Origin: a virus
Reading direction: 5' to 3' (one strand)
DNA: 22,120 nt
IMG/VR virus record: IMGVR_UViG_3300014914_000045
Location: 1-22,120 of that record
Part shown: in pieces, positions 1,837 through 22,120 of the stretch
Numbering within the stretch: position 1 is the stretch's first letter
Layout of the letters: every line of letters begins with the position of its first letter
Program-made: the position numbers and the translations under genes
The notes under the pieces: model-generated
Databases searched by the model: none
Seen by the model: only the letters and a program-made list of their open reading frames with translations
Told to the model about the DNA's origin: nothing

Positions 1837-3843
1837 ATGGCGACGAAGGCGGTCGGCAGCCACATATTCGACTTCCCGGCGCCGGTGGGGCGCCGGGTGA
1901 AGCTTTCGCCCTGGTCGGACCTCGCCGTGGCCCAGGTGCCCCTCAAGGCGACGGGTCCCTCGGCGCCCACGCTGGTCTCCGTCGCCGCGCCGCCGGGGTC
2001 GGTGGGCGTCCTCGAGCTGAGGCTCGAGTTCCCCACGACGAACGTGGACGACACGCCCCTCTATCGCTCCGAGATCGTGAAGGTGCGGGTCTATTATTCG
2101 ACCACGAGTCCCGTGACCGAGAGCGACCCCTACTCGGACTTCCCGCCGGGCGAGACGCTCCAGTTCGGGGCCCCCACCAACGAGACCTACTACTTCGCGG
2201 TGAAGGTCCAGGACTCGCACGGCAACTGGAGCCCCCTGTCGAACGAGCTCTCAGGCAAGGCGAACGACGCCACCGCCAAGGCGACGGAGCACTGGGCGCA
2301 CACGATCAACAAGAACGCGGTCTTCACCGACAACTCGCCCTCCTCGGGCTCGGTGGCGTGGTCCAACGTGGTCCTGTACTACAAGGGCGAGGCCTACGCG
2401 ATCGCCGACGGAGACACCGACAAGCGCTACATTTGGTGGGACGCCGACTACCCTACGCAGTTCCAGACCGCCGACGACGTGCCCGACCTCACGAAGGACG
2501 ACGTCATCGTGGGCTTCAACGACAACGGCACCTGGCGGCTGATGATCTACCGGCCGATGGTCATGGCAGACTACATTCGGGCCGGGGTCCTGCAGTCTTC
2601 GAACTGGGGCACCTCCGAGGGTTCCTATTTCGACCTCGACTCGGGGACCTTCAAGCTCGGTGGCTCTTCTGACCCTAAGCTGAGCTTCTACGAGGATCCG
2701 GTCTCCGGCTGGACCCTAAAGGTCAGGGGCTCGCTCATCGCCGAGAGCGGCTCCTCGATCCACGGCTCCTACATCGAGGACCTCACGGTAACGACCGCCA
2801 AGATCGCGGACGCGGCGATTACAGAGGCGAAGATAGCCGACGCGGCCATCTCATCCGCGAAGATCCAGGACGCGGCGATAACCTCCGCGAAGATAGCGGA
2901 CGCGGCGATCACCAGCGCCAAGATCGCGGACGCCTCTATCACCACCGCCAAGATCGCCGACCTTGCCGTCACGAACGCGAAAATCCAGGACCTCTCCTTC
3001 TCGAAGCTGACGGCGGGGACGTGCGACGCCTCCCTGGTGATCGGGAGTTCCGGCTACATAAAGTCCCAGAACTACTCGGCGGGCTCGGACGGGTTCATCA
3101 TCTACGGTTCCGGCGACGCGGAGTTCAACGACGTGACCGTGCGAGGCGCGATCATCACGTGCTCCGGTTCTCAGATCAACGCGGACTACATCACGTCGGG
3201 TACGATCACAGGGCGCACGGTTCAAACAGCTGCTTCAGGCGCCGCTTTGCGGGCTGCATTAGAAACTTCGGGAACTTATGCTCATTCTCTTGTTTTGACA
3301 CGGTACAGCTCCATCTTAGGTGCATTTCGGGGCTATTCAGGGGGTGAAAGCGCCCTCGAACTGCGTTATGCAGGAGAAGGCCGGATTACAATAGACGCCT
3401 GGAGCGATAAAACCCTCATCAGCTTTTATGAGGTAGACGGGTTCCTCAGGGGAGGATCGGGAAACCCGGTTCATTTGGAATACTGCAAGGCCACGGACAC
3501 TTGCTCCCTTTTCCGCTATTCGTACGTTGAGAAGTTCGACTCGAACGCCCCGACCTCGTGGACCGACCTGATGCTGACCTCGGAGAGGGCGCTGTGCCTT
3601 CTCCTGATAAGGAACAAGACCGCATCGGTGAACAACTACATCTTCCGGCCCAACGGCTTTTCCGACGAACAGCACATATACGTGGACCAATACCCGGGGG
3701 CCTTTGGGACCCGCGTCCACGCGACCGGAGAGAACTATTGCTGGGTCCTCACCGACGCCAACGGAAAGGTGGAGTGGAAGGCCGAGAAGTCCGGCAGCAC
3801 GGAGGTCTACCTTCTAGGATACATCCCCGCCAAGAGCCTATGA
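1837..3843 (+). CDS. Tail fibre / tip attachment-like protein with FN3 domain and decapeptide repeats
   Basis: The product has 668 residues. Residues about 40-140 look like a fibronectin type III domain, ending in the WSPLSNEL signature common in phage tip-attachment (J-like) and fibre proteins. Residues 316-385 hold seven decapeptide repeats of the form AAITSAKIAD, a shaft motif known from tail fibres. The C-terminal part (about 390-668) is beta-rich and ends in CWVLTDANGKVEWKAE, similar to trimeric fibre tips. Codons around 3225-3530 (residues about 463-565) are clearly less GC-rich than the rest, suggesting an exchanged tip segment. The upstream ribosome site is weak (AGGCGTGA), unlike most genes here, so the start is less sure. 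The gene ends 7 bp from the convergent minus-strand gene. The likely role is host recognition at the tail tip. Confidence 0.85.
   Translation: MATKAVGSHIFDFPAPVGRRVKLSPWSDLAVAQVPLKATGPSAPTLVSVAAPPGSVGVLELRLEFPTTNVDDTPLYRSEIVKVRVYYSTTSPVTESDPYSDFPPGETLQFGAPTNETYYFAVKVQDSHGNWSPLSNELSGKANDATAKATEHWAHTINKNAVFTDNSPSSGSVAWSNVVLYYKGEAYAIADGDTDKRYIWWDADYPTQFQTADDVPDLTKDDVIVGFNDNGTWRLMIYRPMVMADYIRAGVLQSSNWGTSEGSYFDLDSGTFKLGGSSDPKLSFYEDPVSGWTLKVRGSLIAESGSSIHGSYIEDLTVTTAKIADAAITEAKIADAAISSAKIQDAAITSAKIADAAITSAKIADASITTAKIADLAVTNAKIQDLSFSKLTAGTCDASLVIGSSGYIKSQNYSAGSDGFIIYGSGDAEFNDVTVRGAIITCSGSQINADYITSGTITGRTVQTAASGAALRAALETSGTYAHSLVLTRYSSILGAFRGYSGGESALELRYAGEGRITIDAWSDKTLISFYEVDGFLRGGSGNPVHLEYCKATDTCSLFRYSYVEKFDSNAPTSWTDLMLTSERALCLLLIRNKTASVNNYIFRPNGFSDEQHIYVDQYPGAFGTRVHATGENYCWVLTDANGKVEWKAEKSGSTEVYLLGYIPAKSL
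2782..2991 (+). repeat. Seven 30-bp tandem repeats encoding AAITSAKIAD-like decapeptides
   Basis: These are seven in-frame units of 30 bp inside the tail fibre gene. Each encodes a variant of (A/L)(A/S)(I/V)T(S/T/E/N)AKI(A/Q)D. The protein motif is kept more strictly than the codons (for example gcgaagatagcg against gccaagatcgcg), so it is an old, selected protein repeat rather than recent slippage. Such repeats form the elongated shaft of fibres, and the copy number may vary between relatives. Confidence 0.9.
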
Positions 3844-4235: not shown

Positions 4236-5279
4236 TCATTTTAGCCCCAAAGACAGTGTGGAGACAATCCTCCGGGCCGCCCTGCCGTCCCCGTAGACCT
4301 CCGAGGGGTCGGGGCGCCAGTCCCGCGCGAGCGCCTCCCGCGCCGCCCCGACGATCCTCCCGGGGTCCCAGCCCACGAGCTTCGCGTGGCCGGTCGCGAC
4401 CGCCTCGTGGCGCTCGGTCCTCTCCCGAAGGATCAGAGTCGGCACGCCGAGGGCGGTCGCCTCCTCAACGACGCCGCCCGAGTCGGTGAGGACGAGCTTG
4501 GCTTCTTTCAGCAGCCCTACGAACTCGGGATACGGCAGCGGCTCGACGACCTCGACGTTCGTTTCCGTCGTGATCTCGTCCATCGCCCGGCTAACGTTGG
4601 GGTTGGGATGCCGGATCAGGACGAGGGGGATCTCCTTCGCAAGCTGGACGATGGCTCCCAGCATCTTCCGAAGCGGCTCCCCGTGCGCCTCTCTCCTATG
4701 CAGGGTTACCAGGACGTAGAGCTCTTGCTTCGGCTGCGGTTTGTACCGCTCCAGAATCCAGTGGAGGGCGTCCACGATCGTGTTCCCCGTCAGGTAGCGT
4801 CTCCCGGGAAGGTCCTCGAGGTTCGCGTAGGCCCAGGGCGTGGGCGCGAAGAGATCGGAGGCGATCTCGTCTATGCAGGCACGGCACGCCTCCTCGGGCC
4901 AGGGGTGCCGCAGGTCGCGGGAGCGGTAGCCCGCCTCCACGTGCCCGATCGGGATCCGGAGCAGGAACGCTACCCACGCGGCCGTGAAGGCGGAGATCGT
5001 GTCGCCCTGCACAAGGACATAATCGGGCCGCAGCTCCCGCAAGAGATCCCGGATCCGCTCGACCGCCCTGACGAAGAACGCCTCAGGCTCCTGGTTCGGT
5101 AGCATGAGGTCCAGGTCGTAATCAGGCCTCAAGCCGAAGACCTGGAAGGCTTGCGAGGCCAGGCTGCAGTGTTGGCCGGTCGAGATGAGGATGTGCTTAA
5201 GGCCCCGTCTCTTCAGCTCGAAGACCACCGGCGCCATCTTGATGATCTCCGGCCGCGTCGAGGCGAACACCGCGATCAT
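4236..5279 (-). CDS. wecB: UDP-N-acetylglucosamine 2-epimerase (non-hydrolysing)
   Basis: At 347 residues it is slightly shorter than the usual roughly 370. It shows the family signature: STRPEIIKMAPV (residues 7-18), TGQH (34-37), VQGDT with D93, GHVEAG with E115, PEE (128-130), TGNT, LHRRE with H194, RHPNPNV with H224, and LTDSGG..EE (264-273) followed by RTER. All expected active-site regions are therefore present. The enzyme interconverts UDP-GlcNAc and UDP-ManNAc in the cytoplasm, feeding surface polysaccharide synthesis. Its start has AGGGAGG upstream and lies 12 nt after the head morphogenesis gene, in the same operon. An epimerase in a phage structural operon is unusual. It may change host surface sugars, for example to block superinfection. 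No glycosyltransferase accompanies it in this window. Confidence 0.9.
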   Translation of the reverse strand: MIAVFASTRPEIIKMAPVVFELKRRGLKHILISTGQHCSLASQAFQVFGLRPDYDLDLMLPNQEPEAFFVRAVERIRDLLRELRPDYVLVQGDTISAFTAAWVAFLLRIPIGHVEAGYRSRDLRHPWPEEACRACIDEIASDLFAPTPWAYANLEDLPGRRYLTGNTIVDALHWILERYKPQPKQELYVLVTLHRREAHGEPLRKMLGAIVQLAKEIPLVLIRHPNPNVSRAMDEITTETNVEVVEPLPYPEFVGLLKEAKLVLTDSGGVVEEATALGVPTLILRERTERHEAVATGHAKLVGWDPGRIVGAAREALARDWRPDPSEVYGDGRAARRIVSTLSLGLK

Positions 5280-5292
5280 GGGTTTCCTCCCT

Positions 5293-6084
5293 TCAAACTA
5301 GGTTTATCGAACACCTACAGGCTGGGTGCGCTGGGGGGGCCATGACCCCGATTGAAAACGGCTCGTCGAGAGGCCGCCGCTCGCCGTGGAGCGCGGAGCA
5401 GATAGGACACGTCCTTTCATCGAATGCCGTGACCCATTCCTTCATCGCGCCCCGCCGGATGACGCCCTGCCTCTGGGCCTCCCTCCAAGCCTCGAGGCGC
5501 GAGTGGTTCTGGGCGGCGATGAACTCCGTCCGGGCGATGGTCTCGGCGCGGCGGCGCAGCATCCTCCTCGCCTGGCGCGAGACGATCGCCTCGACCTTGC
5601 CCGGGGGCAGGCCCTCCTCGAGGAGCGCCCTCCTTCGGGCCATGAGGGCCCTGGCCTGGCGCTCGGTGAGGCCCACGAGGTCCCGGATCCTCCGCGCCGC
5701 CTCCTCGGGGTGCTCGCCCCACTTGATCGCCTCCGCAAGCAGCGCGCGCAGGCCCTTGGCCGTGGTCTCGGAGAGGTCCCTCGCCCGCGCCAGGCCGTAC
5801 CGCCTGAGCCAAAGCGACGCGAGGTTCTCGGGCACCTCCATCCGCAAGGCGCGCGCCTCCCGGAGGAAGCCTTCCTCGAAGACCGGGACCAGCTCCTCGA
5901 GCGGGACCTGGTGGCGCTCGGCGAGGGGCTCCCGGTCGGCCTTCCAGAACTCCCGGGTCCGGCCGGTCCTGATCGCGCGCGCGAGGTCCCTGAGGGCCAC
6001 CGCGGCTCCCAGGGTGAAGATCCAGCCCTGGACCTTGCGCACGTACTGGGTTTCGGAGGGCGCCTTTGCCTTGGCGACGACCAT
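5293..6084 (-). CDS. Phage head morphogenesis protein, Mu gpF / SPP1 gp7-like
   Basis: The 263-aa product ends with the typical module of this family. There is a helix with ETIARTEFIAAQN (residues 181-193), then TAFDERTCPICSALHGE (219-235) and APPAHPACRCSI (249-260). C226, C229, H233, H253, C256 and C258 could bind a metal. The N-terminal two thirds are charged helices. Members are minor head proteins bound to the portal, acting in procapsid assembly or DNA ejection. The ATG lies 1 nt beyond the stop codon of the portal gene, with a GAGGAG site overlapping that gene's end, so translation is coupled. The order portal then gpF is the normal one. Confidence 0.88.
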   Translation of the reverse strand: MVVAKAKAPSETQYVRKVQGWIFTLGAAVALRDLARAIRTGRTREFWKADREPLAERHQVPLEELVPVFEEGFLREARALRMEVPENLASLWLRRYGLARARDLSETTAKGLRALLAEAIKWGEHPEEAARRIRDLVGLTERQARALMARRRALLEEGLPPGKVEAIVSRQARRMLRRRAETIARTEFIAAQNHSRLEAWREAQRQGVIRRGAMKEWVTAFDERTCPICSALHGERRPLDEPFSIGVMAPPAHPACRCSINLV

Positions 6085-6085
6085 C

Positions 6086-7399
6086 TCACTCCTCTGTCTT
6101 GGGCGGCGGCGCGCCGATGAGGTCGCGCAGCCAGCGCTCGAGGTCCTCGTCAGGGAAGAGCTCCGCGCCGCCCTTCGCGAGGGCGTCGAGGATCTTGACG
6201 ACGTCCTCGACGTCCGGGACGCGCGGCAGGTGGTACTGGAGCTTGGGCCAGAACTCCCTCGGGATGCCGTTGTATTCCATCAGCCGCCCCACGGCCTGCT
6301 GGTTCAGGGTGTCGCGGATCACGTCGAGCCAGCCCAGGAGGGCGTGCTCGAAGATGGACCTCTTTTCCCGCATGAGGGCCCACGAGCCCCGCTCGCCCTC
6401 GCCTAGCATGATGAAGTCCGCCAGGACGGTCTGGGCGATGGCGCGGTCGTAGCGCTTGATGATCTCCTCCACGTCGAACTGCCTCGAGCCCGCGGCGGAG
6501 AGGAGCTCCAGCTTATAGGCCTCGGGATGGTCGGGGTCCCGGGGCATGAGGACGCCCTCCTCCTCGTCCCGGCGCAGCCCGGCGATGAGGTCGAGGAGCT
6601 CATCCCGCAGGGTCTGGGCCCGGGGCTCGTTGGAGTCCCAGAGGTCGATGGGCGCGTAGATCACGGGGAGGCCCGCGAGGTCGCGCTCGACGCCGATCGC
6701 CTCGATCGTCTGGAGGCGCTTCTTGTAGTAGTAGGGCACGTAGGCCGCCCGCAGGATCGAGCGCCCCTCGGGGGAGCCCTTCACGGACTCGGTCCGGAAG
6801 AGGAGGCACTTCTCGAGGGGGAGGTAGCGCTGCTTGTAGTCGGGGGGCGCGACCTGGAACGCGCCCCTCACCCGCCCCTTTGAGTCGAAGTCCCACTTGG
6901 AGATCGTCTCCTGCGCCCGGAAGGCGAAGGAGCGCCATCCTATGCGGCCGTCGGAGAAGGCGGAGCGGTACCACTCGCTCTCCTCGTCGGGACCCCTCCG
7001 GACCTTGTAGTTGATCTCGAAGAGCGCAAACCCGTACACCAGGAAGGAGAGCACCTCGGACATGAAGTCCGCCCACGAGTGCTCGAGGTCCTCGATGCAG
7101 GTCTCGAGGAAGTGCGCCACCTCCCGGGCCTCGTCGGAGCCGTCGGCGGGCTGCACGACCCACCTTGCGGAGCGGATGAGCTGCTTTATGGCGAAGAGGA
7201 GGGCGGCGATGGTGGGGTCGGTCTCGATCATCTCCCGGTAGACCTTGCGCGCCTTCTTGCCCTTGAGGTCGGAGAGGTACTCCTCGCGCAGGGTCCCGCC
7301 CCAGCGCTTGAGGCCGGAGACGCCCAGTTCTACGAGGGGCGGCTCACCCCGTTTCGGGGCCTGCTTCCTGGCCGTCCGCCTGCTTTTGCTTTCCGCCAT
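6086..7399 (-). CDS. Portal protein, Mu gp29-like (DUF935)
   Basis: The 437-aa protein matches the DUF935/Mu gp29 portal family in layout. It has a basic N-terminus, then YREMIETDPTIAALLFAIK (a family landmark near residue 55), the SFLVYGFALFEINYK helix-strand region, a central LRAAYVPYYYKK stem-type helix, IIKRYDRAIAQTVLADFI and a C-terminal clip/crown part. Portals form the dodecameric ring at one capsid vertex through which DNA is packaged. The coding start overlaps the end of the 72-aa gene by 56 nt. The large terminase usually found just upstream is missing, because the operon begins one small gene earlier. It is shorter than Mu gp29 (about 510 aa) but looks complete. Confidence 0.9.
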   Translation of the reverse strand: MAESKSRRTARKQAPKRGEPPLVELGVSGLKRWGGTLREEYLSDLKGKKARKVYREMIETDPTIAALLFAIKQLIRSARWVVQPADGSDEAREVAHFLETCIEDLEHSWADFMSEVLSFLVYGFALFEINYKVRRGPDEESEWYRSAFSDGRIGWRSFAFRAQETISKWDFDSKGRVRGAFQVAPPDYKQRYLPLEKCLLFRTESVKGSPEGRSILRAAYVPYYYKKRLQTIEAIGVERDLAGLPVIYAPIDLWDSNEPRAQTLRDELLDLIAGLRRDEEEGVLMPRDPDHPEAYKLELLSAAGSRQFDVEEIIKRYDRAIAQTVLADFIMLGEGERGSWALMREKRSIFEHALLGWLDVIRDTLNQQAVGRLMEYNGIPREFWPKLQYHLPRVPDVEDVVKILDALAKGGAELFPDEDLERWLRDLIGAPPPKTEE

Positions 7400-10658: not shown

Positions 10659-10974
10659 CTTCCTCGTCTTTGATGGCGCGCAGCTCCCTCCGGGCGGTGA
10701 CGTACAGGCGGTACACCTCCAGGAAGTCTTCGAGCGTCATCCCGACCAGGGACTTCCCGACCGAGTTCGCCGACGCGCGGACGGCGCAGGTCGGGACCCC
10801 CGAGGCAGTCTTGCCCTCCTCGAGGAGGCAGTGGACCGCGTCCTGCAGGGGCATGAGGGGCGGGAAGAAGAGGCAGCGGATGTCCCCGATCTCCGCCTGC
10901 CACCACCCTTCCCTCGCCCGGGAAGGCCCCACGTGCAGCTCTTCCTCGAGCCGCCTGAGCCACTTCGGCTTCAT
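10648..10974 (-). CDS. Hypothetical early protein, 108 aa
   Basis: The start is the ATG at 10974, just after AAGGAGGGTTATC. The same frame is open for 79 more codons upstream, but those overlap the membrane gene and lack an RBS. The product opens with a basic/acidic helix (MKPKWLRRLEEELHVG), has a middle with EIGDIRCLFFPPLMPLQDAV and ends with a long helix (LEDFLEVYRLYVTARRELRA) and an acidic tail. Its pattern resembles small phage proteins of unknown function. No family is recognised. Confidence 0.65.
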   Translation of the reverse strand: MKPKWLRRLEEELHVGPSRAREGWWQAEIGDIRCLFFPPLMPLQDAVHCLLEEGKTASGVPTCAVRASANSVGKSLVGMTLEDFLEVYRLYVTARRELRAIKDEEDEG

Positions 10975-10988
10975 GATAACCCTCCTTG

Positions 10989-11192
10989 TTATTCCCAGTT
11001 CGTCGCTAGCCATTGCGCAAACAGCATCAAGCCCATCCCGACCAACATCCCTCCTAGGGCCGCACTGAGGAGAGCCTCCACCCCGTTTCCGTTTCCCAAG
11101 GCGCGGCACGAGGTGACGAAGCTCATGGCCGCGACGGCCCAGTCCACCAGCGCCAGGCCGAAAGTACCGTCCAGTCTCCGCCTCACAGCCAC
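10989..11192 (-). CDS. Small membrane protein, 67 aa
   Basis: It starts at the GTG at 11192, overlapping the end of the nuclease gene by 10 nt, with GAGGAGGAGG 5 nt upstream. Two hydrophobic segments (LALVDWAVAAMSFVTSC, then LLSAALGGMLVGMGLMLFAQ) are joined by a Gly/Asn turn (ALGNGNGVE). The N-terminus is basic (MAVRRRL). The hairpin layout, including a Cys near the turn, resembles the 61-aa protein at 9911-10096, suggesting two copies of one type. Its function is unknown. Confidence 0.6.
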   Translation of the reverse strand: MAVRRRLDGTFGLALVDWAVAAMSFVTSCRALGNGNGVEALLSAALGGMLVGMGLMLFAQWLATNWE

Positions 11193-18079: not shown

Positions 18080-19330
18080 ATGGGGCGCGACAGGCCTGAG
18101 ACTGCCTCCCTCCGTCTTTCCCATCTCCTTCCACCCCTTTCACAGGAGGAATACGAGGCGCTGAAAGCAGATATCGCCGAGCGAGGCGTCCTGGTCCCGG
18201 TTGAATATGATGAGGACGGCAACATCTTAGACGGTTATCATAGGGTGAGAGCCTGTCAAGAGCTGGGGATCAAGGATTGGCCTCGGATCGTCCGCGTCGG
18301 ACTGACCGAGGAGGAAAAGATCGAGCATGCGCTTTCCTTGAACCTCAACCGACGCCAGCTCACCAGAGAACAGAAGCAGGAGATCGCCAAACAGCTCCGA
18401 GAAAGAGGATGGAGCCAAAGGCGGATCGCCCGCGTTCTCGGCGTTACGCAGCCAACGATACACAATTGGCTAAAAGATAAAGGTGATAAAGATTTATCAC
18501 CTGAAAAGGTCGAGGGTGCAGATGGCAAGCTCTACCCCGCACGCAAGAAGAGACGATCCGCGGTCTTCGCAGCCACGGAGCGCGAACACGAGAGGGTGCA
18601 GGAAGCTCTCGAAAAGACTAGGGAGAATTTGCCAGGCAAGATCTTGACAGCCCAGCGGCTCGCCCGGATCGCACGGGAGACCATCGCACAAGAGGCCGAG
18701 ACGGGAGAGTTTCCGACCGCGAAGGAGGGAGACATTGAGATCCGCCTTGGAGACTTTCGCGACGTACTGGGCGACCTGGAGGGCGAGGTCGATGCGATCA
18801 TCACCGATCCGCCTTACGGAAAAGAATATCTCAACCTTTATTCGGATTTGTCTCGGGTTGCCGCGACGCTTCTGAAACCGAGCGGCGTTTTGGTTGTCAT
18901 GGTCGGGACGCTCCACTTGCCGGATTACCTCGCACGCCTCATGACCCACCTGCGGTACCGGTGGACCTGTGCGTATATCGCCCAAGGGCCGCGTACCCGA
19001 GTATTCCCGGCACGCGTCGGGACTGGCTGGAAGCCCCTGCTCGTCTTTACGCGCCAGGACGCGGCCGACACTAAGTTCCTTAACGATGACGTTTTTTACG
19101 CTGCAACGCTTGCGCAAGATGGAACCGGGAAAGTGCGTCATCCTTGGGAGCAATCAGTAGCTGGCTTCGCGGAAATCGTAAAACGCTTCACGAATCCGGG
19201 CGACCTCGTGGTGGATCCGTTCCTCGGCAGTGGAACGACGGCTGTGGCCTGCCGAGACCTGGGGAGGCGTTTCGTGGGCTGCGATATCGACCCCAAGGCG
19301 GTAGCGATAGCGAAGGAGCGTCTCGCATGA
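18080..19330 (+). CDS. ParB-like / DNA methyltransferase fusion, 416 aa
   Basis: AGGGAGGGCGAA precedes the ATG. Residues 20-75 form a ParB/sulfiredoxin-like domain (GVLVPVEYDEDGNILDGYHR, VRACQELG), and 93-131 a helix-turn-helix (QRRIARVLGVTQPTIHNWL). After a charged linker the methyltransferase has IITDPPYGKEY (motif IV, DPPY at 243-246) and then VVDPFLGSGTTAVACRDLG (motif I, 379-387) and CDIDPKA. DPPY before the AdoMet loop is the order of beta-class N4-cytosine or N6-adenine enzymes. No partner endonuclease is present, so it is a lone phage methyltransferase, perhaps for anti-restriction or for marking DNA at the origin. By eye its codons are less GC-rich than the flanking genes, suggesting separate acquisition. 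Confidence 0.9.
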   Translation: MGRDRPETASLRLSHLLPPLSQEEYEALKADIAERGVLVPVEYDEDGNILDGYHRVRACQELGIKDWPRIVRVGLTEEEKIEHALSLNLNRRQLTREQKQEIAKQLRERGWSQRRIARVLGVTQPTIHNWLKDKGDKDLSPEKVEGADGKLYPARKKRRSAVFAATEREHERVQEALEKTRENLPGKILTAQRLARIARETIAQEAETGEFPTAKEGDIEIRLGDFRDVLGDLEGEVDAIITDPPYGKEYLNLYSDLSRVAATLLKPSGVLVVMVGTLHLPDYLARLMTHLRYRWTCAYIAQGPRTRVFPARVGTGWKPLLVFTRQDAADTKFLNDDVFYAATLAQDGTGKVRHPWEQSVAGFAEIVKRFTNPGDLVVDPFLGSGTTAVACRDLGRRFVGCDIDPKAVAIAKERLA

Positions 19331-19740
19331 GCATGGAAGAGCGCTATGGCACGCGAGATTTGACATACTCCTCGTGGCACAGGACGTTACATCCCTCCTT
19401 GCATTACATCGACCTTGATGCGGTTGAGTATTGCGCCCGCTGCAAGGAGCCTTTAGCCCTCCTAGAACTGGCCCAGGACGTTGGTCAGACCTCCAAGACC
19501 ACCACAGTGCTTCGGAAGCTCGCCCGCAGGAGCAACCTCCCGGCCTACCTTGTGTTCTGGAAGAAGGAGGGAGACAGCATAAGCCAATTTCGGATTCGCC
19601 AGGTCTGGCCAAATTGGGGCGAGGAACAAACCATGAGCCCGGAAGAATACGAAGGCTGGTTGCTCTCCCTCAGGTCGGGGCATCGATGCCCCTTGGCTTC
19701 CTCTGGGAGGTGGCATGATGACGACAGAAGAGTTTCTTGA
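19327..19740 (+). CDS. Small PD-(D/E)XK-like protein, 137 aa
   Basis: The ATG overlaps the methyltransferase stop (ATGA), with AAGGAG upstream. SSWHRTLHPSLHYIDLDAVE followed by PLALLELAQD resembles phage proteins with a PD-(D/E)XK-like core, usually WHR.L....Y..DID.vEy....aliE.K. Here the catalytic-type end is E47-L-A49, so the usual Lys is missing and the activity is doubtful. The middle, VLRKLARRSNLPAYLVFWKK, and FRIRQVWPNW fit the same fold. The family link is from memory of patterns and only moderate. It overlaps the primase/helicase by 26 nt and probably belongs to that replication operon. Confidence 0.6.
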   Translation: MSMEERYGTRDLTYSSWHRTLHPSLHYIDLDAVEYCARCKEPLALLELAQDVGQTSKTTTVLRKLARRSNLPAYLVFWKKEGDSISQFRIRQVWPNWGEEQTMSPEEYEGWLLSLRSGHRCPLASSGRWHDDDRRVS

Positions 19741-21748
19741 AAGGCTAGATGGGGTCCGCCAAATCTCTCCTCAGAAATGGATGGCCCGCTGCCCCGCCCA
19801 CGACGACCGCCGCCCCTCCCTCTCGGTCCAGGTGGTCGACGACAGGATCCTGATCCATTGCTTCGCCGGTTGCTCGCCCCAGGAGATCGTCGGGGCCCTC
19901 GGCCTCGACATGCGGGACCTCTTCCTCAAATCCGACTCGCAGAAACCGGAAACGAAGGGGATCCCCGTCGCCGCCTACGTCTACACCGACGAGCAGGGGA
20001 ATCCCCTCTACCGGGTCGTCCGCTATTGGGTTCCCGACCCCAAGAGGCCGAAGCGCTTCGGCCAGGAGGCATGGAACCCGAAGACCGGGACCTGGGAGGG
20101 CGGGAAGGGCTGCATGACCCGGGTCCGGAAGGTCCTCTACCGCCTGCCGGACCTTGTCTCGGCGCCCCGGGACGAGCCGGTCTGGCTGTGCGAGGGCGAG
20201 AAGGACGCGGACCACCTCGCATTCCTCGGCCTCTTGGCCACCACGAACGTCGGGGGCGCCCTCGGCTGGCGGCCGGAGTACGGGACGTACCTGGCGGGCA
20301 GGAAGGTCTACATCCTCGAGGACAACGACGACGCGGGCTCCCGCCGCACCGCCCTCCTCGCGGAGGACCTCTCGGGGATCGCCGCCGAGGTCAAGGTCAT
20401 CCAGCTCCCCGACCTGGGCCCCGGCGAGGACGTGACCGACTGGCTCCTGAAGGGCCACACCGTCGAGGAGCTCCGGGAGATCGCCGAGGCGACGCCTCCC
20501 TACCGCCCCCGCACCGCCGCGGTCATCAAGGGCTCGTTCGGGATCTACTCCGTGGAATGGCCGGAGCTCAACGTCGCCGCCAAGGTCGAGGGCGTGGACA
20601 TCTCGCCCAAGGACGCGACCGTGGTCGCCTCCTTCTACGCCTACGGGCGGCAGGTCATGCCCCGCACCAAGGTCAACCTCCTCTCCGCCTCCACCCGCTC
20701 CAAGCTCGCCAAGGAGCTCGAGAAGAGGGCCCCGATCGACCTCTGGGACCGGCTCGTCGAGGACCTCGCCTCCCGCCTGGTGGACAGGGAGCGATTCGGC
20801 GAGCCCGTCGAGATCATCACCGACGAGAGCGAGTACGAGGAGACCGGCTACCTCGTGGAGCCCCTGCTACCCCTCGGCCTCCCCTCGATCGTCTACGGGG
20901 ACGGCGAGAGCGGGAAGACCATGCTCGCCATCCTCCTCTCCATCCTCGTCTCCTCCGGCGAGTCCCTCCCCGACCTCGGCCTCGAGGTCCGCCACCGAGG
21001 GCCCGTCATGTTCCTGGACTGGGAGGGCACCCGGCACGTGTTCGCCCGCCGGGTCCGCCGCCTTTGCAGGGGCCTGGGCCTCAAGGCCGCGATCCAGTAC
21101 GTGCCCTGCAGGGTCCCCCTCGCCCTCGACTTCGACCGGATATCGAAGGCGGTGCTCGAGTTCGACCCGATCCTCGTCGTGGTCGACTCCGCGGCCCTCG
21201 CCGCCTCGCCCGACCTCAAGGACCCCCTCGACACCGCCAAGAGCGTCATCTCGCCCCTGGCCCAGCTGGGGCGCACCTCCCTCGTCATCGCCCACACGCC
21301 CAAGGGCGGCGACTCCATCTACGGCTCCGTCTTCTTCCGGAACCTCGCCCGCTCCGTCTGGCGCGCGAAGGCCCACCGCGACCCCGACGAGCCCCACCTC
21401 GACGTTGTCCTCGTCCACGACAAGGCCAACGAGGACCGCCGCCGCCTCCCCATCGGCCTCCGGTTCGGCTTCCTCGAGGACCGCACCGTCGTCAAGTGGA
21501 CCAACCCCGCGACCGTCCCCGAGGTCGGGCCCTCCGCCGACCCCAAGGGCGCCGTCATCGCCCTGCTCAAGCGCGAGGGCGCCATGTGCGCCGCCGACAT
21601 CGCGAGGGCCCTCGACCTCAAGGAGAGCACCGTCCGCTCCATCCTCAACCGCCTCAGGGCGAACGGGCGCGCCACGGTCGTCCGCTCCCAAGGGCGCCGC
21701 AAGTACTACGGCCTCGTCACCTACGAAGAAGAGGAAATCCCGTTCTGA
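19715..21748 (+). CDS. Primase/helicase: CHC2 zinc, TOPRIM and RecA-fold ATPase domains
   Basis: The 677-aa protein starts at 19715 or 19718 (ATGATG after GGGAGG). A CHC2 zinc finger (C26, H29, C49, C53: RCPAHDDRRPSLSV, HCFAGCS) is followed by TOPRIM (LCEGEKDADHL with E160; LEDNDDAG with D203 and D205). Residues 380-600 form a RepA/RecA-like ATPase with Walker A GDGESGKT (395-402), the strand MFLDWEG (432-437) and Walker B ILVVVDS (486-492). Residues 612-668 are a winged helix (ADIARALDLKESTVRSILNR). It would prime and unwind DNA at replication start in the cytoplasm. Codon third positions are almost all G/C. The iteron cluster lies right behind it, as expected for an initiator with its origin. 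A dedicated replicative polymerase is not seen. Confidence 0.92.
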   Translation: MMTTEEFLERLDGVRQISPQKWMARCPAHDDRRPSLSVQVVDDRILIHCFAGCSPQEIVGALGLDMRDLFLKSDSQKPETKGIPVAAYVYTDEQGNPLYRVVRYWVPDPKRPKRFGQEAWNPKTGTWEGGKGCMTRVRKVLYRLPDLVSAPRDEPVWLCEGEKDADHLAFLGLLATTNVGGALGWRPEYGTYLAGRKVYILEDNDDAGSRRTALLAEDLSGIAAEVKVIQLPDLGPGEDVTDWLLKGHTVEELREIAEATPPYRPRTAAVIKGSFGIYSVEWPELNVAAKVEGVDISPKDATVVASFYAYGRQVMPRTKVNLLSASTRSKLAKELEKRAPIDLWDRLVEDLASRLVDRERFGEPVEIITDESEYEETGYLVEPLLPLGLPSIVYGDGESGKTMLAILLSILVSSGESLPDLGLEVRHRGPVMFLDWEGTRHVFARRVRRLCRGLGLKAAIQYVPCRVPLALDFDRISKAVLEFDPILVVVDSAALAASPDLKDPLDTAKSVISPLAQLGRTSLVIAHTPKGGDSIYGSVFFRNLARSVWRAKAHRDPDEPHLDVVLVHDKANEDRRRLPIGLRFGFLEDRTVVKWTNPATVPEVGPSADPKGAVIALLKREGAMCAADIARALDLKESTVRSILNRLRANGRATVVRSQGRRKYYGLVTYEEEEIPF

Positions 21749-21762
21749 ACCATGCGCGCGAA

Positions 21763-21780
21763 TGCAACGCTTTGCAACGT
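21763..21780 (+). repeat. Iteron copy 1
   Basis: TGCAACGCTTTGCAACGT, two TGCAACG half-sites 10 bp apart (one helical turn). It differs by one base from the copies at 21829 and 22031. Confidence 0.85.
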
Positions 21781-21828
21781 TTCAGTTCCCTTGCGGGCTC
21801 AGGGCCGATTTTTGATTCAATTTGGAGT

Positions 21829-21846
21829 TGCAACGCATTGCAACGT
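21829..21846 (+). repeat. Iteron copy 2
   Basis: TGCAACGCATTGCAACGT, identical over 18 bp to the copy at 22031. It is followed by TTTCC, as copy 1 is followed by TTCAG. Confidence 0.88.
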
Positions 21847-21897
21847 TTCCGCATCGAATGCCCTAGCAAACCGGCTTTCCGGCCGGCCCGCCCCGAA

Positions 21898-21925
21898 ACG
21901 TTGCAAATGCGTTGCGAAGCGTTGC
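21898..21925 (-). repeat. Inverted iteron copy with extra half-site
   Basis: ACGTTGCAAATGCGTTGC is the reverse complement of the iteron with one extra A. A third CGTTGC follows at 21920, keeping about 10-bp phasing. Confidence 0.8.
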
Positions 21926-21997
21926 GCGTTTAAGCTGTTCCAGTTCCCAACTGCGTTTTCCCTGCAACGTTTTTCGCCAATAATATACTTCTTACGT

Positions 21998-22039
21998 TGC
22001 GTTGCACCGGGGCCTTATATAAGGCCCCGGTGCAACGCA
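21998..22039. repeat. 42-bp perfect palindrome
   Basis: The two 21-bp arms are exact reverse complements with no loop. The left arm opens TGCGTTGCACCGG and the centre is CCTTAT|ATAAGG. The flanks continue the symmetry imperfectly (CTTCTTACG on the left against CGTAAAGAAG on the right, separated by an extra TTGC). No U-tract follows, so it is not an ordinary terminator. Confidence 0.95.
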
Positions 22040-22048
22040 TTGCAACGT
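22031..22048 (+). repeat. Iteron copy 3, overlapping the palindrome's right arm
   Basis: TGCAACGCATTGCAACGT, identical to copy 2. Its first nine bases form the outer end of the right arm of the 42-bp palindrome. Confidence 0.88.
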
Positions 22049-22106
22049 AAAGAAGAAATTAAAGAAGGGAACCGGAAAATCCCGGCGCCGGGTTGCGTCC
22101 CAATCC

Positions 22107-22120
22107 GTTGCACGTGCAAC
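22107..22120. repeat. 14-bp palindrome at the right window edge
   Basis: GTTGCACGTGCAAC is a perfect palindrome built from two inverted iteron half-sites. It reaches the last base, so it may extend beyond the window. Confidence 0.8.

Follow-up and report, generated by a model that had tools for sequence, protein, structure and literature searches.

Several described replication systems resemble the locus analysed here. SaPI Rep and SCCmec Cch2, both self-loading helicase-initiators, recognise, through their C-terminal domain, iterons located directly downstream of their own genes (PMC7581432). The oriV of the IncQ plasmid RSF1010 consists of iterons and of stem-loops where a dedicated primase starts, and its RepA, RepB' and RepC are separate proteins (PMC4234260, PMC4538821). 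The alpha protein of phage P4 unites a TOPRIM-type primase, a helicase and a winged helix and binds repeats at its own origin, the origin of pRN1 is an essential stem-loop 3' of the primase-helicase gene ORF904, and in Bordetella phage BIP-1 a stem-loop proposed as the origin lies 3' of a primase-helicase-winged-helix gene, with no origin iterons found (PMC4234260). A survey of mobile-element PrimPols considered that their C-terminal winged helices may recognise origins, the repeats not being named (PMC5862659).

The window, that is the whole stretch of DNA analysed, takes in a whole virus record (22,120 bp), which is probably a fragment of a genome. Terminase and major capsid genes were not found in it, and a Mu-type portal (also similar to the P23-45 portal) and a Mu F-like protein are encoded at 5293–7399 on the minus strand, which is consistent with a fragment. 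The record also encodes a tail-fibre-like protein with a run of short KIADAAITSAKI-type repeats (1837–3843, plus strand) and a relative of phage-borne UDP-N-acetylglucosamine 2-epimerases with about 40% identity to cyanophage copies (4236–5279, minus strand). Its last 372 bp, downstream of a primase-helicase gene, probably form a phage replication origin, in which TGCAACG (CGTTGCA on the other strand) would, judging from the sequence, be the word bound by the C-terminal winged helix of that primase-helicase. As the record stops inside this array, further boxes may follow, and the next gene lies out of view.

TGCAACG occurs 11 times in the record against 1.5 expected, a number reached in 0 of 100 shuffles, and ten of these copies (seven plus, three minus) lie in the last 372 bp, the remaining one being at 19102. 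With up to one mismatch allowed, there are about 48 boxes per kb in the array versus 1.6 per kb elsewhere in the record. The first box, starting at 21763, closely follows the stop codon of the primase-helicase gene (21748), and the ten boxes span 15 to 364 bp past the stop, which bears out the iteron cluster that a sequence-only reading had placed after this gene. The pattern TGCAACGNNTTGCAACG is present in three copies in the record, all within the array, and its reversed control in none. In particular, word counts and the pair pattern placed tandem box pairs on the plus strand at 21763–21779 (TGCAACG-CTT-TGCAACG) and at 21829–21845 and 22031–22047 (both TGCAACG-CAT-TGCAACG), and word counts placed single boxes at 21963–21969 (plus) and, at the record end, 22106–22112 (minus). 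The earlier description of three tandem copies, two of them identical, with half-sites in a phase of about 10 bp is thus correct (the copies at 21829 and 22031 share the spacer CAT, and the start-to-start distance is 10 bp), although the unit, given as 18 bp, measures 17 bp. What had been called an inverted copy with an extra half-site is indeed inverted and comprises three boxes (CGTTGCA-AATG-CGTTGCG-AAG-CGTTGCG, 21899–21926, minus strand), but two of the three carry one mismatch and the spacing is 11 and 10 bp. The AT-rich patches amount to a weak enrichment, 50-bp windows peaking at 60% AT versus about 36% for the record.

Palindrome search and folding revealed a further element, absent from the sequence-only reading: a perfect 42-bp palindrome at 21998–22039 (TGCGTTGCACCGGGGCCTTATATAAGGCCCCGGTGCAACGCA) with the core CCTTATATAAGG and an imperfect extension to 21981–22061. 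Its left arm carries a box at 22000–22006 (minus) and its right arm one at 22031–22037 (plus), so that it overlaps the third tandem pair. Folding of 21950–22120 yielded −47.7 kcal/mol compared with −24.3 ± 3.2 for shuffles (z = −7.4). We propose the palindrome as a hairpin, melting or priming element, and its TTATATAA core may act as an unwinding element. A strong hairpin after a stop codon could also terminate transcription or have another structural role where an early operon ends, with the boxes serving autoregulation, and a short T-run does follow the stem in Rhizobium phages 16-3 and RHph_X2_25; in the record, however, neither strand has a T-run after the palindrome, and this explanation, which accounts for neither the ten boxes nor the covariation between word and protein described below, is very unlikely.

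The gene upstream (19715–21748, plus strand) encodes a 677-residue primase-helicase, the proposed initiator, composed according to Pfam, PHROG and profile matches of an N-terminal zinc-ribbon/TOPRIM-type primase region, a central RepA-like AAA_25 helicase and a C-terminal winged helix (Pfam AAA_25, E = 3.8e-21; PHROG DNA primase, 1.4e-31). The helicase domain was delimited by Pfam and profile to residues 365–533 (20807–21313, plus strand). AAA_25 was found in all 38 aligned family members, and a profile of the part of the family from the helicase to the C-terminus had RSF1010 RepA (1g8y) as its best PDB match (E = 1.7e-17). The winged-helix domain, at about residues 610–667 (21542–21715, plus strand), was delimited by sub-threshold Pfam wHTH matches and an AlphaFold model built with 38 aligned relatives (mean pLDDT 80), in which model residues 244–301 follow the order H-E-H-H-E-E with a block pLDDT of about 68–82; the weak Pfam matches and the model suggest a winged-helix topology for the C-terminal end, i.e. 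a putative DNA-binding domain. Foldseek matches to the model were dominated by KaiC/RecA-fold ATPases and carried little information on the winged helix. The predicted recognition helix comprises residues 637–649 (ESTVRSILNRLRA, 21623–21661, plus strand), as placed by covariation and the AlphaFold model, with R641, S642 and N645 as equivalents of the word-covarying residues. Close relatives of the record's primase were not found in IMG/VR, records with relatives of its portal contained no primase match, and a plasmid collection contained no match to the helicase-winged helix part.

The arrangement of array and helicase gene recurs in other phages. When viral contigs were scanned for the DNA word alone, 120 loci were obtained; in 18 of them the array follows an AAA_25 helicase ORF at a distance of at most 1 kb, and in none does it precede one. 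The reversed-word control was positive in three of 120 loci, all of them arrays already found with the true word, because both words share GCAACG, and in the single-pair scan control none of 65 loci had an array beside an AAA_25 helicase. Among the helicases found in this way are some with little similarity to that of the record: those of loci L086, L185 and L182 and a family A of about 660–696 residues (e.g. L079). Matches to phage primase/polymerases place L086 in another primase class, and the 478-residue protein of L185 has hardly any space for a primase domain.

The same scans yielded other occurrences of the word. The pair pattern TTGCAACGNNTTGCAACG matched 65 times over viral contigs, mostly as single chance occurrences, and only L051 was kept; there, a TTGCAACG array takes up positions 1–120 of a 4-kb contig and is immediately followed by a bbp27-like HTH gene and then by the terminase small and large subunits, any helicase lying off the contig. 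Many matches to a triple pattern (e.g. L148 and L107) proved to be repeats inside or near coding sequence and were excluded. In L143 a TGCAACG array lies upstream of one weak AAA ORF, which was flagged by an early, less general profile and dropped by a later one. L147 and L140 (IMGVR 3300046092_000154, 73.6 kb) carry many separate TGCAACG clusters on one contig, in contrast to the single array elsewhere, and L101 has a TGCAACG/GTTGCA-rich stretch of mixed orientation at 10720–11010, largely non-coding and with no helicase detected beside it.

The reverse selection, in which loci were chosen by the helicase protein alone, gave a consistent picture. A 7-mer over-represented in the 500-bp flank (p ≤ 0.01 versus 200 dinucleotide shuffles) was detected downstream in 34 of 51 loci and upstream in none of 47, in a set that includes close relatives, so that loci and lineages are not fully independent; about a third of these loci had no detectable word in the 500 bp downstream. 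The words differ among phages and include CGTTGCA, CGGGACA (up to 18 copies), CGTGACA, CCAGACA (14 copies), CCATACA (up to 12 copies) and others. Among named phages the same layout was found in Rhizobium phages 16-3 and RHph_X2_25 with the word CGTGACA, in RHph_N65 with GCGGAGAT, in Roseobacter phage CRP-823 with CTACAAA and in Idiomarinaceae phage 1N2-2 with CGGTACA. In three complete genomes, 11 of 13, 12 of 16 and 8 of 12 word copies lie inside the array. No array was found in several named phages with related primase-helicases, namely Caulobacter RW, Arthrobacter BruhMoment, Mycobacterium Prince, Microcystis Mae-JY30 and ctLpZ231, actinophages and cyanophages being among the relatives that lack it. 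In 29 of 72 loci a GC-rich hairpin with a T/A core follows the helicase gene, and in one it precedes it (1.6 expected from shuffles), its cores being CCCTTTAGGG, CCTATATAGG, CCTTATATAAGG and similar sequences, and in many loci it is placed between oppositely oriented boxes. Despite the differing words, the phages share a recurrent layout of boxes, GC-rich T/A-core hairpin and inverted boxes. The gene order of phage 1N2-2 is that of the record, with a minus-strand exonuclease block, a plus-strand HTH gene and primase-helicase gene, and the array; past the array come one small gene and then, across the genome ends, the terminase genes, and this order suggests what may lie past the end of the record.

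The word changes together with the C-terminal part of the helicase. In the natural pair L350 and L351 the helicase cores are mostly 85–100% identical and the last 120 residues 45–65%; the two arrays align in register, with CGTTGCA replaced box by box by CGGGACA and the hairpin arms altered to match. In the A2 family, at core identities of 0.75–0.97, pairs with the same word share 0.56–0.59 of their C-terminal residues versus 0.31 for pairs with different words, and among pairs below 0.65 core identity no such difference was found. To compare recognition helices, positions were numbered back from a conserved arginine in an alignment placed by hand, and 19 lineages were treated as independent in a permutation test. 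The word covaries with positions −5, −4 and −1 (p = 0.0005 for each, the lowest value that the test can give), residue identity being 0.81, 0.61 and 0.42, respectively, for same-word and 0.21, 0.07 and 0.06 for different-word comparisons. Positions −8 and −7 covary weakly (p = 0.03 and 0.07), and positions −6, −3, −2 and +1 showed no covariation in the 19 lineages. With this spacing, −5, −4 and −1 point to the same side of the helix. The motif R-S-x-x-[NYH] occurs with the word CGTTGCA in the record (R641, S642 and N645) and in L086, L182 and L185, and since the latter three were picked by their DNA word only, the residues they share played no part in their selection. Family A combines CGTTGCA with a different helix (RKQRVRRAL), so that the code is not unique and has more than one solution.

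Taken together, the position 3' of RepA-type helicases, the recurrent hairpin and the covariation of word and helix support the replication origin that the sequence-only reading had seen in an iteron array beside its initiator. Of the two binders it had left open, an initiator or a regulator, the covariation favours the primase-helicase's own C-terminal winged helix. Its GC-skew check gives no such support: the cumulative minimum does fall in the array, but at the end of the fragment, and it is uninformative in the record because the fragment ends at the array; in complete relatives it lies near the array in one of three.

Box arrays are typical of operators as well, and the region could instead be an operator or promoter. 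A phage regulator, e.g. the small HTH protein that is frequently encoded after the array, would then bind the boxes and either control the late genes that follow or restrict expression of the helicase. A small bbp27-type HTH gene indeed lies directly after the array in family A loci and in Bordetella phage BPP-1, and terminase genes follow the HTH gene in BPP-1 and L051. Of the 72 loci, however, only 12 have a bbp27-type gene downstream, the helicase upstream being constant, and in none of 47 loci was an array detected in front of the helicase gene; as the next gene varies while the helicase stays and its recognition helix tracks the word, we consider an operator unlikely. In BPP-1 (L381), the interval separating bbp29 (primase) from bbp27 (HTH) contains, at about 2080–2250, a hairpin flanked by inverted TTGCCTCGT/ACGAGGCAA box pairs (GAGGCAA/TTGCCTC), at the site where the near-identical BIP-1 was reported with a stem-loop but without iterons (PMC4234260).

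Upstream of the primase-helicase gene, at 18080–19330 (plus strand), the record encodes a fusion of ParB_N, HTH and an N6/N4 DNA methyltransferase; methyltransferase-like matches were found upstream of the helicase in 13 of 65 other loci, and a link to origin control is possible. With this ParB-like protein, with terminase genes following in some relatives and with a palindrome so long and perfect, the region could be imagined as a parS site, as a pac or cos site near the missing terminase genes, or as a telomere-resolution palindrome. Such a role is highly improbable, as the word tracks the winged helix of the helicase and not ParB or terminase, no resolvase was seen in the record and beyond the palindrome the sequence does not fold back.

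For the origin, we propose the following mechanism. Several copies of the protein would bind the phased direct and inverted boxes through their winged helices, and RepA-type helicase rings would be loaded on either side of the GC-rich palindrome and its TTATATAA core. The palindrome would melt, or each of its strands would be extruded as a hairpin; the fused primase would prime on the exposed strands and forks would depart. Because the palindrome is perfectly symmetrical, either strand would form an identical hairpin, an arrangement reminiscent of the paired ssi sites in RSF1010.

Such an origin would differ from each of the described systems. The helicase of P4 alpha belongs to superfamily 3 (SF3), and the P4 repeats have another sequence; the helicase here matches AAA_25/RepA and is thus not of the SF3 type. 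pRN1 and BIP-1 share with the record an origin, or proposed origin, stem-loop directly 3' of a primase-helicase-winged-helix gene, but pRN1 ORF904 and BIP-1/BPP-1 combine an AEP primase with an SF3 helicase. As in SaPI Rep and Cch2, several copies of a short word stand immediately 3' of a helicase-initiator gene with a putative C-terminal DNA-binding domain, and these two proteins offer an experimental precedent, by analogy, for downstream iterons bound by such a domain. They are DUF927 or D5/Primase_Cterm helicases from other hosts, whereas a RepA-type AAA_25 helicase is here fused to a TOPRIM-type primase and a large palindrome lies inside the box array. With RSF1010 the record shares a RepA-family helicase and the combination of iterons with stem-loops, and the T/A-core hairpins that recur among its relatives may be counterparts of primase-recognised ssi hairpins; unlike in RSF1010, primase, helicase and DNA reader form one polypeptide and the primase is of TOPRIM type, not AEP. 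The protein resembles RSF1010 RepA and RepC fused to a primase, and by analogy it may work like an IncQ replicon without being a member of that group. The literature search turned up no paper on origins of this box-hairpin-box kind downstream of AAA_25 helicase genes in phages, and this recurrent layout is apparently undescribed.

More broadly, and with somewhat less confidence than for the origin itself, we think it likely that the RepA-type primase-helicases of tailed phages make up a large family whose members are self-contained replicons sharing one origin layout, in which the word would be read by helix positions −5, −4 and −1 through a decipherable code (R-S-x-x-[NYH] for CGTTGCA, [KR]-[KR]-x-x-[QS] for CGGGACA, R-Q-x-x-[NH] for CGTGACA and Q-[AT]-x-x-[KM] for CCATACA), phages switching word and helix together. 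For most tailed phages sequenced so far, the replication origin has not been located. If this proposal is true, the origin and its binding word could be located in many phages and prophages, whose hosts here include Alpha-, Beta- and Gammaproteobacteria among others, by inspecting the DNA 3' of the RepA-type primase-helicase gene, and both could be predicted from the protein sequence. Coexisting phages would then have origins that do not cross-react, and the natural word swaps would provide a ready data set on the coevolution and mutual exclusivity of initiators and origins.
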